Positions 25,911 through 62,480 of a DNA stretch of 64,000 nt are shown one piece after another. The notes beneath the pieces are model-generated. The model saw only the letters and a list, made by a program, of their open reading frames with translations, was not told where the DNA came from and ran no database searches. The DNA is from Actinomycetes bacterium (lineage in GTDB: Bacteria > Actinomycetota > Acidimicrobiia > Acidimicrobiales > Microtrichaceae): assembly GCA_024222295.1 (NCBI GenBank), contig JAAEPF010000034.1, positions 248,001 through 312,000 of the forward strand, given 5' to 3'. Both the position numbers and the translations under genes were made by a program. Every line of letters starts with the position of its first letter. Within the stretch, counting starts at the first letter, position 1.

Positions 25911-25933
25911 CTGACGCACGTGTCAACTACAGT
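25911..25933 (+). promoter_or_regulatory. Operator 6 with -10, MaoC/hydratase/thiolase operon
   Basis: CTGACGCACGTGTCAA (25911-25926), a match with one terminal mismatch, is followed by -10-like TACAGT (25928-25933). The next start codon is ATG 25966, with AGGGGG as ribosome-binding site, so here the leader is about 25-30 nt. Confidence 0.72.
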
Positions 25934-39556: not shown

Positions 39557-41601
39557 GTGGTCGCCTCCCGCTCAAGGGCCGGCCCGTCGCCGCGGTCCTT
39601 GCCCACTCTCCTGACGATCGCGTTGACCGCCTTGGCGGTCTGTGCCTCGATACTTCCCTCTGGATGGCGCGCATAGGTGATGGCGCCGAAGCCGAACAGG
39701 ATGAACGCAACCGGGACCGCCCAGCTTGGCGACACCCAGCCGAGCGCCGTGGCGAGCGGCTCGGGCAGGTCCGGGTTGGAGTCGGCCAGATTGCCGGGCC
39801 ACGAGAAGAGCTTCTCGAGCAGGGCCGGCACGAGGAAGAAGAACAGCCCGGCCATCACTGCCGCCTGCACGCTGCGCGAACCGGCCGACACGACCAGGGC
39901 CACCCAGACGAGGCCGAACAGGTAGCCGAAGCTGGCCTGGAAGTTGGCCTGTTCCAAGTAGGTGGCCATGAGGCCACCGCCGAATCCGGCAACCCCTGCA
40001 GCCACCGAGAACGCGACGACCCTCGAGCGGGTGGCAGAGATGCCGATCGAAGCGGCTGCGGTCGGGCTCATGTGAAGGGCCTGCAGGTACCGACCGGTCG
40101 TGCCCTCCCGCAAGCGGATCACACCGATGCCCACGATGGCCAGGCACACCGCGGCGAATACCAGGAACCAGCGATCGTCGGCCATGTCGACGGGGCCGAT
40201 CAGGGGTCGCGGCACGGTGAGCGGCACCGCGCCGCCGCTCACCCACCCGAGCGGCACCAGCACCGCCTCGAACATGAGGGCGAATGCCAGGGTTGCGAGA
40301 GCCAGGTAGACCGCGTCGAGGCGCACGATCGGCACCGCGAGCACGGCGCCCACCACTGCTGCAACCAGCGCCCCCAGGAGCATCCCGACCACGACGGACA
40401 TGCCGGTGGCGGCGACGATCTGCGCGCAGGCGAACGCCCCGATTGCGGCAAACGCCGCCGGAGACAGGGACAACATCCCGCCGAGCCCGGTGGTCACGGT
40501 GATCGACAGCATGATCACGCTGAGCACGACCCCGCTGATCACGAGCCCGAGCCAGAACGCGTCGAGCACGAACAACGACACCCAGAGCCCCACGGCGATG
40601 ATCGCCACACCGAGACCGCGGGTGCCGATGGTCATCCACTCGGGACGGGTCTGCGAAACCGGTGCCGGTGGGGGTGGGTCGACCGAGGCGAGTGGATCCG
40701 TTGACTCACGGTTGCGGAGGCCCGGGCGGAACACCAGCAGTGCGAACAGCACGACGAAGGGGAGGGCCGGGCGGAGGCCCGAGGCGAGCACACTGTCGGT
40801 GGGCAGGGTGCCGGCCAGCACCGCCTGGAGCACGCCGAGGCCGATGCCGCCGGCAAACGTGAGCGGGATGCTCGTCAGTCCACCAACGACCGTGGCCGCC
40901 AGTGCGGCGACCAGCAGCGTGAACAGGTCGATCGGATTGAGCGAGGCGAACAAGGGCGCCACGAGCACTCCGGCGAGCCCCGCGAGCAGCGACGAAAGCG
41001 CCCAGGAGGCCATCGACACCCGCTCTGAGTTGACGCCGTGCAGTTCAGCCATGCGGGCGCTCTCCACCACGGCCCGCATCCGCAAACCGAGGTCGGTACG
41101 GGAGAACAACAAGACGAGCCCGATCACCACGACGATCGTCGACGCGATCGTGGCCACCTGCCCGGCATCGAGCACGAACCTCGCGCCCTCGGGCCAGAGC
41201 CACTCGTCGGTACGCCGCACCCACCACAACGGTGGCGGGTTCTGCTTGGCGTCCTGGCCGATGAGGAGTCGCACGATCTCGGGTATTGCGATGAGAAGGC
41301 CCAGCGAGGTGACCAGCTTCGCCATGGCCCCGGAGCCGCGCAGGTAGCGGAACAGGGTCCGTTCCAGCAGCAGCCCGATCGCGGGCCCCACGATCACTAT
41401 CGACAGCAGTGCAGCAGCCCACAAGGGCCACTCGTGCTCTCCTCGTACCACGAAGAAGCAGGCTGCGCTGGCAAATGCCTGCGCGCCGTAGGCCAGATTG
41501 AATACTCCAGAGGTCTTGTAGGTGAGAACGAGCCCAACCGCGAGGAGGGCGAACACGCAGCCGGTCGGGATGCCCCTGAGTGCGTACTCGAGGATCTCCA
41601 C
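39553..41601 (-). CDS. Fused LivH-LivM-type ABC importer permease
   Basis: A 682-residue membrane protein joining the two permeases normally made by livH and livM. Residues ~1-290 are LivH-like (ILEYALRGIPTGCVFALLAVGLVLTYKTSGVFNLAYGAQAF). Residues ~330-640 are LivM-like (GLGGMLSLSPAAFAAIGAFACA; the EAA-like loop RGTTGRYLQALHMSPTAAASIGISATRSR). A ~45-residue Pro/Ser linker separates them. About 16-18 hydrophobic helices are visible. Fusion makes a single permease chain with fixed stoichiometry. It lies 12 bp behind the solute-binding protein gene. Confidence 0.93.
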   Translation of the reverse strand: MEILEYALRGIPTGCVFALLAVGLVLTYKTSGVFNLAYGAQAFASAACFFVVRGEHEWPLWAAALLSIVIVGPAIGLLLERTLFRYLRGSGAMAKLVTSLGLLIAIPEIVRLLIGQDAKQNPPPLWWVRRTDEWLWPEGARFVLDAGQVATIASTIVVVIGLVLLFSRTDLGLRMRAVVESARMAELHGVNSERVSMASWALSSLLAGLAGVLVAPLFASLNPIDLFTLLVAALAATVVGGLTSIPLTFAGGIGLGVLQAVLAGTLPTDSVLASGLRPALPFVVLFALLVFRPGLRNRESTDPLASVDPPPPAPVSQTRPEWMTIGTRGLGVAIIAVGLWVSLFVLDAFWLGLVISGVVLSVIMLSITVTTGLGGMLSLSPAAFAAIGAFACAQIVAATGMSVVVGMLLGALVAAVVGAVLAVPIVRLDAVYLALATLAFALMFEAVLVPLGWVSGGAVPLTVPRPLIGPVDMADDRWFLVFAAVCLAIVGIGVIRLREGTTGRYLQALHMSPTAAASIGISATRSRVVAFSVAAGVAGFGGGLMATYLEQANFQASFGYLFGLVWVALVVSAGSRSVQAAVMAGLFFFLVPALLEKLFSWPGNLADSNPDLPEPLATALGWVSPSWAVPVAFILFGFGAITYARHPEGSIEAQTAKAVNAIVRRVGKDRGDGPALEREATT

Positions 41602-41613
41602 TGCCGCGACCGC

Positions 41614-42936
41614 CTACTGGGTGTCGACCTGCTCGAGCTCGTCACCGCTGACGTCGAAACAGGTGAAGATCGAATCCTGTTCCGTGGGCGTCATCTTGCC
41701 GTCGACGATCTCGAGGTAGGTGGAGCAGTTGATCGGGTTGCGTTGCCAGTGGCCGTACTCCGCCCAGTTCGTGCCCGGCAGCATCCCCTCGGCGTTCTGG
41801 TCCTCGAGTGAGTTGATGGCGTCGATGACCTTCTGGCGAGTGAATTCGGGCCCTGCCTCGCGTAGCCCCTCGACGAAGGCGGCGGCGTTGAGCCAGCCCA
41901 CCATCGAGTTCTCCGTTCGCTCGCCCCCCGTCGAGTCGATCCACTCCTCATAGAGGTCGAGGCCTTCGGGGCGAAGGTCATCCGGAGCCTCCAGGGGCGA
42001 GAAGCCGATGATCACGTATGACCCCTCGAACAGGTCGCCGAACTCCTCGAAGAACTCCTGGTTGTAGGCGTTGGGCAGCAGCTGGATCGCGTCGAGGCCC
42101 TGCTTCTTCATCTCCTTGGCGAGCGTGACGATGGCGTTGTTGTCCATGCACGTCGCCACCATGTCGACGCCGGCTTCGGCCATCTTCTGCACCTGCACCG
42201 ACAGGTCGGTGGTGCCATACGCCAACGAGGCGTCGCTGAACACCACTTCGGCGCCCGCCGGGGCGCCCCACTTCTCGATCGACTTGCCCCATCCGTCGAG
42301 GCAGGTTGACGACTGGGGCACGTTGTAGGCGAGGAGCCCGACCTTGCTGCGGTCGGCCCGCTCCGCGATGTAGGGCGGGTACGGCTGGGCGCAGCCGAGG
42401 CACAGGAATGACCCCGCCTGGCCGAACAGATTGAGCTTCTGGTCGTCCTGCGTGCCCTGCCACTCAGGGTTGATGGTCCAGCCGAAGGTGGGGATCCCGG
42501 CCTCGACGAGGGTGTCGGCGCCCGTGAAGAGCAAGGTGGCCACCGGGATCACCGCGAAGGCCTCGTCGGAGTCCACCACCCCCTTGGCCTCCGCGGTGTT
42601 GTTCGCGACCTTGTCGTCGCGAACGTCGGCCAGCACGAGCTGTCGGCCGTGCACTCCGCCGGCGTCGTTGACCATCGCGAAGTAGGCGTTGACGCCGTCG
42701 GCCGCGCTCGCGTAGTTGGCGCCGAGCGGATTGGTGGCCGACACGATGCCGGTCACGCGGATCTCCTCGTCGCTGACTCCGGGTGCGTTCACCGCGACGT
42801 TCCCGGTGCCGGAATCGGTCGTCGACCCGGAGTTGCCCGATGTCGTGCCATTGCCGGCGCCGCTGCCCTCGGAGTTGCCGCATGCGGCTGCCAGCAATGT
42901 GGTGGCTGCCAGGGTCACGATCCAGCGAGCTCTCAT
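41614..42936 (-). CDS. HAAT-type solute-binding lipoprotein
   Basis: A 440-residue LivK-like periplasmic-binding protein. Lipobox LLAAACGN at residue ~19 predicts lipid anchoring, followed by a Gly/Ser/Thr-rich linker. The mature domain starts APGVSDEEIRVTGIVSATNPLGANYASAADGVNAYFAMVNDAGGVHGRQL, typical of type I (Leu/Ile/Val) binding proteins. The bound molecule cannot be deduced; in this setting a carboxylate or ketone precursor is plausible. Upstream on the same strand is a 16-bp-stem hairpin and operator 9, so expression is under the TetR regulator. GGGGGAAAG precedes the ATG. Confidence 0.95.
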   Translation of the reverse strand: MRARWIVTLAATTLLAAACGNSEGSGAGNGTTSGNSGSTTDSGTGNVAVNAPGVSDEEIRVTGIVSATNPLGANYASAADGVNAYFAMVNDAGGVHGRQLVLADVRDDKVANNTAEAKGVVDSDEAFAVIPVATLLFTGADTLVEAGIPTFGWTINPEWQGTQDDQKLNLFGQAGSFLCLGCAQPYPPYIAERADRSKVGLLAYNVPQSSTCLDGWGKSIEKWGAPAGAEVVFSDASLAYGTTDLSVQVQKMAEAGVDMVATCMDNNAIVTLAKEMKKQGLDAIQLLPNAYNQEFFEEFGDLFEGSYVIIGFSPLEAPDDLRPEGLDLYEEWIDSTGGERTENSMVGWLNAAAFVEGLREAGPEFTRQKVIDAINSLEDQNAEGMLPGTNWAEYGHWQRNPINCSTYLEIVDGKMTPTEQDSIFTCFDVSGDELEQVDTQ

Positions 42937-42953
42937 CTTTCCCCCGTATTGAC

Positions 42954-42987
42954 CGGACGGGTGCGCAGGAGCCTGCGCACCCGTCCG
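42954..42987 (-). promoter_or_regulatory. Perfect 16-bp-stem hairpin in the 5' leader of the importer operon
   Basis: CGGACGGGTGCGCAGG (42954-42969) and CCTGCGCACCCGTCCG (42972-42987) are exact reverse complements around a 2-nt AG centre. It ends 17 bp before the binding-protein ATG, between operator 9 and the ribosome-binding site. In RNA this is a very stable stem. No U-tract follows, so a leader or stability element is more likely than a TetR-gene terminator, though both directions are possible. Confidence 0.7.
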
Positions 42988-43000
42988 CCCCCGATTGCCT

Positions 43001-43020
43001 AACTGACACTAGCGTCAGTT
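43001..43020 (-). promoter_or_regulatory. Operator 9 in front of the importer operon
   Basis: AACTGACACTAGCGTCAGTT is a 20-bp near-perfect dyad (18 of 20 positions symmetric), the longest of the ten copies. It lies between the 3' end of the TetR gene (43064) and the hairpin, about 65 bp upstream of the binding-protein start. A -10 is expected just 3' of it on the minus strand (TTAGGCAAT), but the match is imperfect. Confidence 0.72.
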
Positions 43021-43063
43021 CGGCGGCCGGGTGGAGGAAAGGCTGTGCCCCTTCCGGGTGTCG

Positions 43064-43720
43064 TCAGTGTCCGGGACCGAAGTAGGCATCGAGAGCGATC
43101 GAGGCGAGCACCTGCACCAGTCGCTCGCTGTCGTCACGGAGCTGGTCGGTGGCCAGGAAGTAGTTGACGCGTTCGACCATGGCGACCACGACCAGCGACG
43201 CGACCTCCGGGTCGAGCTTTCGGCTCTTGCGGACCTTCACCTTGGTCGACAGCTCGCTTGCGATCCGGCCGAGCAGGTCGGGTACTCCGGGGCCATCTGC
43301 ATCACTCGGTGCCTCTGCATCTGTCCAGGACCGGATAAGCGGCCCGTACCCGCGGTACAGCTCCACGAACGACACGAGCCAGGCCTCCAGCGCGGCCCTG
43401 CCCTCGGCATCGTCGCGGATCGTAGGCAGGCCGTCCGTGAGTTGGTGGAACTCCTCGGCGACCTCTGCCACCAACTCGTCGAACAGCTCCTCCTTGGAGG
43501 AGAAGTACAGGTAGAAGGTGCCGTGCGAGGTCTTTGCCCGCTTCACGATGTCGTCGACCCGCGTGGCGTGGAATCCCCGCTTGGAGAACGACCTGACTCC
43601 TGCAGCCATCAACCGGGCCCGCGTGGCACGGCCGCGTGCGCGCCGCGGCTCGCCCTGCGCGTCGTCGCCGGATCCGCCGGATTTCGTCCGTGCGGCGGTG
43701 CCGCTGGTGCTGGTGGCCAT
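43064..43720 (-). CDS. TetR-family transcriptional regulator, proposed master repressor
   Basis: A 218-residue TetR protein. After a ~28-residue low-complexity N-terminus, the HTH runs from RARLMAAGVRSFSKRGFHATRVDDIVKRAKTSHGTFYLYFSSKEELFDELV (recognition helix around SHGTFYLYF), followed by an all-helical ligand domain (RDDAEGRAALEAWLVSFVELYRGYGP). TetR repressors commonly respond to acyl-CoA or small hydrophobic ligands. The gene is flanked by operators 9 and 10, divergent from an acyl-CoA ligase and upstream of the importer operon; operators of the same sequence precede eight more catabolic units. Autoregulation and regulon control are inferred. Confidence 0.88.
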   Translation of the reverse strand: MATSTSGTAARTKSGGSGDDAQGEPRRARGRATRARLMAAGVRSFSKRGFHATRVDDIVKRAKTSHGTFYLYFSSKEELFDELVAEVAEEFHQLTDGLPTIRDDAEGRAALEAWLVSFVELYRGYGPLIRSWTDAEAPSDADGPGVPDLLGRIASELSTKVKVRKSRKLDPEVASLVVVAMVERVNYFLATDQLRDDSERLVQVLASIALDAYFGPGH

Positions 43721-43730
43721 GGCTGGCCCG

Positions 43731-43773
43731 AGGCTAGCTGCCCGGGTCGGCTGACGCTGGTGTCAGTTAGGAT
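43731..43773. promoter_or_regulatory. Operator 10 in the TetR/acyl-CoA ligase divergent promoter
   Basis: CTGACGCTGGTGTCAG (43751-43766). Rightward, TAGGAT (43768-43773) lies one base beyond and 7 nt before GTG 43781. Leftward, TAGCCT (43736-43731, minus strand) lies 10 nt before the TetR ATG. One operator could thus repress both directions. Confidence 0.72.
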
Positions 43774-43780
43774 GCGCGCC

Positions 43781-45625
43781 GTGGCGACCACGAGTGCAGG
43801 ACAGGCCGACGCGCAGCAGGGTGGTTCCGCCTCTGCGCCTCCACCCGGCCGCGCCCCCATGCCTGCCGATGATGCGGCGGATCTGCTCCGGCGCAACGCT
43901 GCTGACCCCCAGCTGTCCTCGCGGGCAGCGATCCGTTTCGGGGACCTGCGCTGGACACATGCCGAGTACTTCGAGCAGTGCTGCCGGGTGGCATCCCTGC
44001 TGGCCGCAACACCGAGGATCGAGCGCGGTGTGCATGAAGTTCCCGAGGCGGAGCGCCCGGTCCATGTCGGCGTGCTGCTGGATAACACACCGGAGTACCT
44101 GTTCCTGCTGGGTGGGGCCGCCCTCGCCGGTGCAACCGTCGTGGGCCTGAACCACACACGCTCGGGGTCTCAGCTGTGGAGGGACCTGACCCATACCGAT
44201 GTCGACCTGCTCGTCACCGAGACGCGGCACGCGTCGCGGTTGGCCGGGGCCGTGGCAACCCGCGACGAAGCAGACCCGGTGCCTCCCGTGCTGGTGAGCA
44301 CGACCTACGACGAGGGGCCGTCACCCGAACCGGGCGTGTCGGTCACAGCGGGCGCAGCGGACCTGGGTGAAGCGCTGGCAGCACACCCGGCCACCGACCC
44401 GGGTCTGCGGCCCGGTGCCGACACCAGATGGGCGCTCGTGTTCACCTCCGGCACCTCCTCTGACCCCAAGGCCGTGATCTGTTCGCAGCGGAGACTGCTG
44501 GTCACCGGCAACCGCATGCGGATGATGCTGGAGCTCGGTGCCGACGACGTCGGGTACGTCTGCATGCCTCTGTTTCACTCCAACGCCCTGATGGTCGGCT
44601 GGGCGCCATCGCTGGTCGCGGGCGCGTCCGTGGCCCTGGCCCGGCGGTTCTCCGCCTCCGGTTGGTTGGCAGACGTGAGGCGCTACGGAGCCACGTGGTT
44701 CAACTACACGGGCAAGCCGCTCAGCTACCTGCTCGCGACACCCGAGAAGCCCGACGACACCGACAACACTCTGCGGGTGGCGTTCGGCAACGAGGGGTCG
44801 CCGCGGGTACTGGAGGAATTCGCCCGGCGCTTCGACATCAGGATCATCGATGCATTCGGGTCTACCGAGGGCGCAATAGCGGTCAGTCGCGACGCGCCAC
44901 AGCGCCGTGGTGCCATGGGGGTGGCGGGTGACACCGTGTTGGTGGTGGATGAGGATGGCGTGCCCTGTCCACCAGCCGAGTACGACCGCGACGGGCACCT
45001 CTCGAATGCCGACAGGTGCGTGGGTGAGATCGTCAACACCGCAGGTGCCGGACCGTTCGAGGGCTACTACAACAACCCGGAGGCGACGTCCTCGGCCCTC
45101 CGCAACGGTTGGTACTGGTCCGGCGACCTCGGCTACCTGGATGCCGACCGCTACCTGTTCTTCGCGGGTCGCACCGCCGACTGGATCCGGGTGGACGGTG
45201 AGAACTTCCCGGCCGGGCCCATCGATGAGGCGCTCCTGGCCCACCCGGACGTCGTGGCCGCTGCTGCATACGGGGTGCCCGACGCCGATGCCGGCGACCA
45301 GGTGATGGCGGCGCTGGTGATGCGCGAGGGTTGCCGACTCGACCCGGCCGCGTTCGCTGACTGGCTGGACGCTCAGCCGGACCTGCCTCCGAAGTGGAGG
45401 CCGCGCTACCTGCGGGTCGCTGCCGAGCTGCCGAACACAGGCACCAACAAGGTGGTGAAGCGAACGCTCGTGCACCAGAAGTACCGTCCCGACCGGTGCG
45501 ACGACGACCCGTTGTTCGTGCGCGAGCGGGGCGAAGCCGTCTTCTCGCCACTGTCGGAGCAGCGCGTCGCCGCCATCGCGGAAGCGCTCATCGATGCCGG
45601 GCGAGAGCGGTTCTGGGACCTGTGA
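43781..45625 (+). CDS. AMP-dependent acyl-CoA synthetase
   Basis: A 614-residue FadD-like ligase. The P-loop appears as VFTSGTSSDPKAVICSQ (Gly after PK replaced by Ala). Other motifs are AFGSTEGAIAVSRD, the hinge WYWSGDLGYLDADRYLFFAGRTADWIRVDGE and the C-terminal catalytic Lys in NTGTNKVVKRTL. It activates a carboxylate to its CoA ester. The start is either GTG 43781, supported by TAGGAT 7 nt upstream (leaderless), or ATG 43772, three codons earlier. Divergent from the TetR gene across operator 10 and followed 37 bp later by an acyl-CoA dehydrogenase. Confidence 0.9.
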   Translation: MATTSAGQADAQQGGSASAPPPGRAPMPADDAADLLRRNAADPQLSSRAAIRFGDLRWTHAEYFEQCCRVASLLAATPRIERGVHEVPEAERPVHVGVLLDNTPEYLFLLGGAALAGATVVGLNHTRSGSQLWRDLTHTDVDLLVTETRHASRLAGAVATRDEADPVPPVLVSTTYDEGPSPEPGVSVTAGAADLGEALAAHPATDPGLRPGADTRWALVFTSGTSSDPKAVICSQRRLLVTGNRMRMMLELGADDVGYVCMPLFHSNALMVGWAPSLVAGASVALARRFSASGWLADVRRYGATWFNYTGKPLSYLLATPEKPDDTDNTLRVAFGNEGSPRVLEEFARRFDIRIIDAFGSTEGAIAVSRDAPQRRGAMGVAGDTVLVVDEDGVPCPPAEYDRDGHLSNADRCVGEIVNTAGAGPFEGYYNNPEATSSALRNGWYWSGDLGYLDADRYLFFAGRTADWIRVDGENFPAGPIDEALLAHPDVVAAAAYGVPDADAGDQVMAALVMREGCRLDPAAFADWLDAQPDLPPKWRPRYLRVAAELPNTGTNKVVKRTLVHQKYRPDRCDDDPLFVRERGEAVFSPLSEQRVAAIAEALIDAGRERFWDL

Positions 45626-48674: not shown

Positions 48675-48698
48675 GTTGTCCCTCCTGTCGAGCCGTTA

Positions 48699-48739
48699 TG
48701 TTCGAGCTGAATCACACTATCGGTGATCCAGCTCGAACA
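48699..48739. promoter_or_regulatory. 17-bp-arm inverted repeat between esterase and BVMO genes
   Basis: TGTTCGAGCTGAATCAC (48699-48715) and GTGATCCAGCTCGAACA (48723-48739) are reverse complements with one mismatch, separated by 7 bp (ACTATCG). The symmetric placement between divergent genes points to an operator for a dimeric regulator. It does not resemble the CTGACRCNNGYGTCAG sites. Confidence 0.7.
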
Positions 48740-48755
48740 TTCCGGGGGCGAAGCA

Positions 48756-61382: not shown

Positions 61383-62330
61383 ATGGCTTCACCATTCCGG
61401 TTCGCGGTCCAGATGGATGGTCCGCTCGAGGGTCGCAGCTGGGTCGACAGCTGCCGTGAGATGGAGGACCTCGGTTACGACACGATCATGGTCCCCGACC
61501 ACTTCGACGAGGGTCTCGGCCCGATTTCGGCAATGGCCGCCGCAGCGGCGGTCACGTCCACCATCAAGGTCGCCCCACTCGTGCTGGATTGCGACTTCAG
61601 GCACCCGGCTCCGCTTGCACGCGAGCTGGCCACGATCGACGCGATGTCCGAAGGGCGTCTCGAGGTGGGTGTTGGAGCAGGCTGGAAGCGCACCGACTAC
61701 GTCCGGTCCGGCATCTCCATGGATCGGCCGGGCGTTCGCGTGTCGCGCATGATCGAGCACGCCACGATCCTGCGCCAGTTGTTCACCAGCGAATCGGTGA
61801 GCTTCGAGGGAGAGCACTACAGCATCACGGACCTGCCGGGGGAGCCGGCGACACACGCACCCGGCGGGCCCCCCTTCCTCGTCGGCGGTGGTGCTCCACG
61901 CGTCCTGCGCTTCGCGGGCGGCTTTGCGGACATCGTCGGGATCAACCCGTCGATCCACTCCGGTGAGATCGACACCAGTGCCGCACAGGACGGCTTGCCG
62001 GACCGCATCGACGAGAAAGTCGGCTGGGTGGGCGAGGGCGCGTCGGCCCGCGCGGATGGCAAGTCTGCCGAGGACCTCGAGATCAACGCATGGCTGGCCG
62101 CCGCTGAGATCACCGAGGACCGCGCCGGGGTGGGCGAGATGCTGGGCGCGATGTTCGGAGTGGAACCCGCGGTAGGGCTCGAGGCACCGGTGGTGTTGGT
62201 CGGCACCGAGTCACAGGTCACCGAGGACCTGCATGCCCGGCGCGACCGGTGGGGCTATTCGTACACAGTCATTCCGGGTGACAAGGCACGTGAGTTCGCC
62301 CCGGTGGTTGGTGGGCTCACGGGCTCCTGA
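61383..62330 (+). CDS. F420-type LLM-class oxidoreductase (MSMEG_2516-like)
   Basis: A 315-residue luciferase-like barrel protein with DLGYDTIMVPDHFDEGLGPISAMAAAAAVTSTIKVAPLV, ATIDAMSEGRLEVGVGAGW, and PFLVGGGAPRVLRFAGGFADIVGINP. This arrangement is that of the TIGR03621 'F420-dependent, MSMEG_2516 family'. Such enzymes use F420 or FMN to reduce or oxidise small substrates; the actual reaction is unknown. Followed by the nested inverted repeat at 62347-62437 and convergent with the hypothetical gene after it. Confidence 0.88.
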   Translation: MASPFRFAVQMDGPLEGRSWVDSCREMEDLGYDTIMVPDHFDEGLGPISAMAAAAAVTSTIKVAPLVLDCDFRHPAPLARELATIDAMSEGRLEVGVGAGWKRTDYVRSGISMDRPGVRVSRMIEHATILRQLFTSESVSFEGEHYSITDLPGEPATHAPGGPPFLVGGGAPRVLRFAGGFADIVGINPSIHSGEIDTSAAQDGLPDRIDEKVGWVGEGASARADGKSAEDLEINAWLAAAEITEDRAGVGEMLGAMFGVEPAVGLEAPVVLVGTESQVTEDLHARRDRWGYSYTVIPGDKAREFAPVVGGLTGS

Positions 62331-62346
62331 GCGTCGCGGCGCCGTC

Positions 62347-62437
62347 TGTGCTGGGCCACTCAGCCTGCCTTCTCGAGGACCTGAGCGTCGTGGTGACGCT
62401 CAGTCACTCCAAAAACGAGGCTGAGTGATTCAGCACA
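62347..62437. repeat. Nested inverted repeat in the convergent intergenic region
   Basis: The outer arms (62347-62366 and 62418-62437, 20 bp each) match at 17 of 20 positions. Inside lies TGAGCGTC-GTGGT-GACGCTCA (62382-62402), a perfect 8-bp stem with 5-nt loop. Together they can fold into a two-level cruciform or mRNA structure. It lies between convergent genes, so a bidirectional terminator, REP-like element or small mobile palindromic repeat are all possible. GGTGCG repeats (62444-62467) follow. Confidence 0.65.
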
Positions 62438-62480
62438 GGGCGTGGTGCGGGTGCGGGTGCGGGTGGGGAGCGCAGTCGGG

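Follow-up and report, generated by a model that had tools for sequence, protein, structure and literature searches.

A perfect 16-bp hairpin between a tetR-family gene and an importer gene, possibly a lineage-specific U-less gene-junction hairpin

In the 64,000-nt stretch of DNA analysed here (the window), from an Actinomycetes bacterium of the Microtrichaceae (Acidimicrobiales), a perfect hairpin occupies the gap between a tetR-family regulator gene and an importer gene lying on the same strand. It looks like an ordinary stable gene-junction hairpin devoid of a U-tract, a kind common at gene ends in this genome. We tentatively propose that this RNA hairpin, which is GC-rich, U-less and lineage-specific, marks or protects the 3' end of the tetR mRNA. 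We infer from the sequence both a promoter in the neighbouring operator and whatever effect the stem may have on termination, protection or expression. The features of the locus are as follows.

41614-42936, minus strand: importer substrate-binding lipoprotein gene (Peripla_BP_6), with its ATG at 42936
42933-42980, minus strand: possible 15-codon leader ORF, GTG to TGA, spanning the 3' part of both hairpin arms; likely a chance occurrence
42941-42945, minus strand: Shine-Dalgarno GGGGG of the importer binding-protein gene, a G-rich stretch also found in the leaders of relatives
42954-42987, minus strand: hairpin with 16-nt perfect arms and a 2-nt centre, in the same sense as the importer and tetR transcripts
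43003-43018, no strand assigned: TetR-type palindromic operator CTGACGCTAGTGTCAG (operator 9), presumably bound by TetR
43006-43011, minus strand: putative, weak -10 element TAGTGT within the operator, read by eye
43064-43720, minus strand: tetR-family regulator gene, upstream of the importer gene and on the same strand

Using a combination of methods (inverted-repeat listing, RNA folding and Markov nulls), we confirmed the perfect 16-bp stem with a 2-nt centre that the first-pass annotation had described. The arms (42954-42969 and 42972-42987) are 100% complementary and 2 nt apart, and the next perfect inverted repeat, among the 25 listed of 33 found, has arms of only 12 nt. The RNA fold of the hairpin (plus strand) comprises 15 bp and a 4-nt loop, at −32.9 kcal/mol, and none of 200 dinucleotide shuffles folded as well (z −8.0). 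No arm exceeded 12 nt in five order-2 Markov copies of contig C34 (341,677 bases), whereas the real contig holds six perfect hairpins with arms of at least 13 nt.

Within the tetR-to-importer gap of 127 bp, the tetR stop is 76 nt upstream of the hairpin and the importer ATG 17 nt downstream; the rest of the importer operon follows the binding-protein gene. Read on the minus strand, the gap consists of the operator CTGACGCTAGTGTCAG (43018-43003), TTAGGCAATCGGGGG, the hairpin (42987-42954), GTCAATAC, the Shine-Dalgarno GGGGG (42945-42941) and the ATG (42936), and the hairpin takes up 34 of the 66 nt of the operator-to-ATG spacer. These coordinates bear out the annotated position between the operator (43003-43018) and the ribosome-binding site (GGGGG, 42941-42945) of this minus-strand gene.

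A search of positions 41500-44200 for a stem followed by a U-tract returned none, where shuffles led us to expect 1.0, and the gene-strand sequence just after the stem, GTCAATAC, has two T in eight bases. An intrinsic terminator with a U-tract was thus rejected, in agreement with the annotation, which had seen no U-tract to support a terminator. The hairpin does have the kind of stem seen in I-shaped (U-less) 3' ends, strong, GC-rich and followed by fewer than three U in the next eight bases. In Streptomyces clavuligerus, a U-tract is missing from 353 of the 535 RNA 3' ends that are highly structured (PMC8269248), and in mycobacteria U-less I-shaped hairpins are described in a review as the main kind among intrinsic terminators (PMC12288462). 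We propose that RNA running out of tetR would form the stem, which may help the polymerase to release or may block 3'-to-5' exonucleases, whereby the 3' end of the tetR mRNA would be set or guarded and read-through into the importer gene limited. Since the hairpin lies past the operator, RNA starting at the operator would also carry it, in the importer leader, with the ribosome site free and probably with a modest effect.

Several points count against this junction reading. First, Rho-dependent ends dominate termination in mycobacteria, according to the same review (PMC12288462), and in its reference list the titles of Ahmad et al. 2020 and Czyz et al. 2014 disagree on the need for a U-tract. 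Second, a real terminator placed past the importer's own promoter would harm importer expression, which speaks against terminator action. Third, the mycobacterial polymerase is said, in the title of Czyz et al. 2014, to require a U-tract, which counts against U-less termination. The importer hairpin shares with the I-shaped, or "highly structured U-lack", 3'-end hairpins of high-GC Actinobacteria a stable GC-rich stem, fewer than three U in eight bases, a tandem gap and a position after a stop codon, but differs from them in lying past the operator of the next gene, 17 nt from its start. The stop-to-stem distance is 76 nt, versus at most 50 bp in a review's definition of I-shaped hairpins, and the stem is nearer to the next start.

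To place the hairpin within its genome, we counted the perfect hairpins (arms of at least 12 nt, loops of at most 10 nt) located in intergenic gaps of at least 20 nt, in a sample of 1,061,677 bases (the whole of contig C34, positions 1-400,000 of the 498,736 of C2 and positions 1-320,000 of the 527,196 of C17). The genes were taken from a simple codon-usage caller, with tetR and a neighbouring ligase gene set by hand, and the gap types and distances carry the corresponding errors. Tandem gaps (49.0 kb) contained 22 such hairpins, convergent gaps (13.4 kb) 14 and divergent gaps (27.3 kb) one, while gaps shuffled with only their base composition preserved yielded about 0.1 or none. Copies of a dispersed palindrome family (see below) account for 17 of the 37 (nine tandem, seven convergent, one divergent); the remaining 20 comprise 13 tandem, seven convergent and no divergent hairpins, and removing the copies left the odds of the various readings the same. 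This tandem and convergent bias indicates that long perfect hairpins sit where the 3' end of a gene is near. On average they have no U-tract: the T fraction is 0.23 in the eight bases after the stem and 0.25 before it for the 33 tandem hairpins with arms of at least 10 nt, and 0.16 after the stem for 15 convergent ones. In this high-GC lineage, which has been little studied, long perfect hairpins without a U-tract thus clearly form a class tied to the 3' side of genes, and RNA-end mapping there would bear on whether U-less hairpins end transcription.

The importer hairpin is not a typical member of this class. Among the 33 tandem hairpins (arms of at least 10 nt), 26 are closer to the stop than to the next start, and the importer hairpin belongs to the other seven; its distances (76 nt from the stop, 17 nt from the start) are evidence against a simple 3'-end reading and provide context for an operator. 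Six more of the tandem hairpins lie at most 30 nt from a start: two resembling TetR operators, one LexA-like box, one dispersed-family copy, one terminator-like hairpin (C17:71963, followed by TAGTTTTG) and one unclassified. That three of these six are operator-like suggests that the importer hairpin might itself be a DNA operator, used once, for a second regulator. We regard this as quite improbable: the genome holds no second site, tetR is the only regulator gene adjoining, and a perfect palindrome of 34 bp is long for an operator.

Indeed, the 34-mer occurs only once in the 3.76 Mb of the genome (both strands, up to three mismatches), as do its outer arms with a gap of 8-20 nt. A single arm, with up to two mismatches, matched eight times forward and seven times in reverse, counting the two arms of the hairpin itself, compared with four and four for a reversed-pattern control, and the hairpin core, with up to three mismatches, was found at 15 places including itself versus seven for the control. 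These searches point to neither a repeat family nor a regulon, and a mobile palindrome was ruled out by the absence of a second copy at up to three mismatches. The statement in the annotation that no similar element precedes the other operons is right only in part: an inverted repeat (23-nt arms, 87% complementary) occurs at 48693-48745, between two divergent genes, and belongs to the different, dispersed palindrome family.

To compare the locus with its relatives, we searched for the importer protein in three sets of genomes. Of 298 from the order, 52 gave a match at 1e-60, and 30 loci were taken; of 33 from the family, 13 (our own included) gave one at 1e-100; and the GTDB species genomes supplied 10 loci. 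Three loci whose gene start is off the contig (L013, L014 and L040) and those at 28-41% identity (L018-L031 and L041) were left out of leader folding; after identical spacers were dropped, some loci of both collections being the same record, 27 relative loci gave 19 distinct spacers. The leaders were compared at 39-65% protein identity, all outside the genus of our organism, within which the stem may still be conserved. An operator-like palindrome precedes the gene in 14 of the 19 distinct leaders and is absent from five, and the two closest relatives (L003 and L004, 63% identity) lack an operator of this type in front of the gene. None of the 19 contains structure that beats its own shuffles (lowest p 0.16), whereas by the same leader test none of 300 shuffles was as good as the present locus (z −5.6). 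The annotation had named a lack of conserved pairing in relatives as a result that would refute it; the 19 leaders contain no conserved pairing, and the best reading of these sequences is that the hairpin is lineage-specific at the distances compared. In L007 an imperfect stem, with 11 of 12 positions paired, opens the spacer immediately after the operator, but it folds no better than shuffles (p 0.41).

One genus of this family (L006, L043, L044 and L045, with matching records L033, L035, L036 and L037) retains the operator and a G-rich ribosome site, with 28 nt from operator to ATG and no stem; its upstream frame, inspected by eye, looks like the tail of a tetR gene. Relatives with tetR, operator and importer thus do without the hairpin, which counts against the junction reading. 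Among the upstream stretches listed for the loci left out of folding, for which the choice of start is rough, L028 shows a perfect palindrome of 11 bp without a loop, 53-74 nt upstream of the chosen start, and L030 a stem of 8 bp around a loop of 11 nt. No match to the importer protein was found in viral contigs.

The single copy, the perfect pairing and the lack of a counterpart in relatives would also be expected of a recent palindrome of little or no function, which could have arisen from a small insertion or from template switching at a near-palindrome. In E. coli, such switching reportedly takes place at quasipalindromes. The flanks of the hairpin carry near repeats, CAATCGGGGG and CAATACGGGGG (42988-42992 and 42941-42950), a gapped match seen by eye that would suit such an origin, but the flanking repeat is not significant in an ungapped comparison (p 0.13), and a target-site duplication was rejected on that figure. 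Over the 47 hairpins tested for flanking direct repeats, two reach p 0.05, which is the chance level. Likewise, the contrast between 28 nt in the above genus and 66 nt here favours an insertion, but the spacers of the other operator-bearing relatives range from 20 to 75 nt, which weakens this reading, so that an insertion is suggested at most. Other single-copy hairpins of this sort are found repeatedly on the 3' side of genes, an argument for the class having a function, and we consider a neutral palindrome unlikely.

The leader position of the hairpin depends on where transcription starts. No sigma-70-type promoter consensus was found. By eye, a TANNNT hexamer directly follows the operators at 25911 (plus strand), 7590 (minus strand) and 43751 (plus strand), and the TAGTGT in the centre of the present operator recurs in five distinct leaders (L005, L006, L043, L045 and L046), as well as in L011 and L016, whose palindrome is gone; it is missing from the other nine operator-bearing leaders, including L047 of the same family. 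We thus take TAGTGT (43006-43011) as the likeliest, putative -10, which would place the RNA start near 42997-43000, some 10-13 bases ahead of the stem, and make the leader about 60 nt long. With an alternative -10 at TAGGCA (42996-43001), the stem would be almost 5'-terminal. Situated past the operator and before the Shine-Dalgarno, the hairpin would be part of the leader provided that the RNA begins within the operator or immediately beyond it. The annotation, which put the stem at the very 5' end of the importer mRNA on condition of a start just past the operator, is right as to the placement past the operator, but the likeliest start would leave 10-13 bases ahead of the stem. The operator-to-start spacers of L005 and L046 have two G-runs each, like the GGGGG at 42988-42992 and 42941-42945 here, the first of which might be a former ribosome site.

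On the strength of this position, between operator and ribosome site, the annotation had read the hairpin as a leader stem near the 5' end, with a role in shielding the importer mRNA from decay or in tuning how it is translated. The predicted stem is stable and does not hide the Shine-Dalgarno in the fold, the mean unpaired probability of which is 0.42-0.53 with the stem (eight folds, four start sites) versus 0.47 without it, and by analogy 5' stem-loops stabilise some mRNAs in other bacteria (PMC7509114). Against this reading stand the following lines of evidence. First, the Shine-Dalgarno is equally open with and without the stem. Second, none of the 19 distinct relative leaders has significant structure. 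Third, long hairpins are nearly absent from divergent, purely 5', gaps. Fourth, in a Mycobacterium smegmatis study (PMC11728522), the pair of hairpins in the esxB 5' UTR gave a reporter no gain in stability, deleting both raised the transcript level, and 5'-UTR hairpins showed no transcriptome-wide link to stability; and in Bacillus subtilis, placing a stem too close to the Shine-Dalgarno made the mRNA less stable (PMC7509114). Similarly to the ompA-type 5'-terminal stabilising stem-loops, the importer hairpin is a stable stem upstream of a free ribosome site and probably near the RNA 5' end, but unlike them it is not conserved, likely has 10-13 unpaired bases before the stem and gives no sign of function. 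The role as stabiliser or translation tuner is thus unsupported; it is possible, if rather doubtful in our view, and the annotated interpretation is partly supported, in position only.

The leader ORF (42933-42980) brings in a conditional attenuator, in which the stem would halt RNA from the operator promoter unless ribosomes translate this Arg- and Leu-rich ORF through the stem to the importer ATG, so that a check on translation would supplement control by the repressor. A G-run stands 7 nt ahead of the GTG of this ORF, whose stop overlaps the importer ATG (an ATGA overlap). An upstream ORF of at least eight codons with a Shine-Dalgarno-like stretch and an end at the start codon occurs in nine of 458 genes (upstream gap of at least 80), but this 2% base rate is weak because the ORF was noticed after the fact, and without the ribosome-site condition such ORFs are common (89 of 458). 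With no U-tract after the stem and no ATGA overlap in the leaders of the IMCC26207 group (L006, L043 and L045), we hold an attenuator to be highly improbable.

Back to the U-less junction hairpin that we favour, it matters little taken alone; it is a useful case of a striking one-sequence hairpin failing a conservation test at the available distances.

It did not correspond to a known RNA family: Rfam gave no match at the gathering score in the whole window, and the eight sub-threshold matches at the locus (five animal or plant microRNA families in six rows, one aspS and one viral stem), rejected as candidates, have a best E of 0.023, none near the cut-off. A literature search on intergenic palindromes in Acidimicrobiales found none.

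The dispersed palindrome family mentioned above has a fixed 27-nt core, GCTSRATCAC-N7-GTGATYSAGC, at 35 sites of the genome (contigs C2, C17, C23, C24, C25, C33, C34, C51, C55 and C91; in the window, 48693-48745 with the core at 48706-48732), mostly in tandem and convergent gaps. Its outer arms are often GTTGGTGC or GTTCGAGC, with the paired arm variants GG/CC, GA/TC and CA/TG. The core was absent from the 32 other genomes of the family, and the REP-associated Y1 transposase (PF01797) was not found in our genome by a search that was positive in five of 14 control genomes. Membership of the importer hairpin was rejected, as 42954-42987 is not among the 35 sites: like dispersed REP-like palindromes, of which this genome has such a family, it is an intergenic palindrome, but it is single-copy and unlike the family in sequence.

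Three other palindromes were observed. A perfect 22-bp hairpin at C34:226053-226101, one of the 47 tested, has the same 8 bp, CGGAAGAT, directly repeated without a mismatch on either side (p <0.01, 100 shuffles), and, judged on sequence, might resemble an inserted element. In the window, 44-nt arms at 62346-62438 (75% complementary, 5 nt apart) lie just after the called gene 61383-62330 and loosely resemble the dispersed family. Finally, a 30-bp palindrome at C2:273762-273791, just before a called gene start, has at its centre TCGAACAAGTGTTCGA, which resembles the actinobacterial LexA box.
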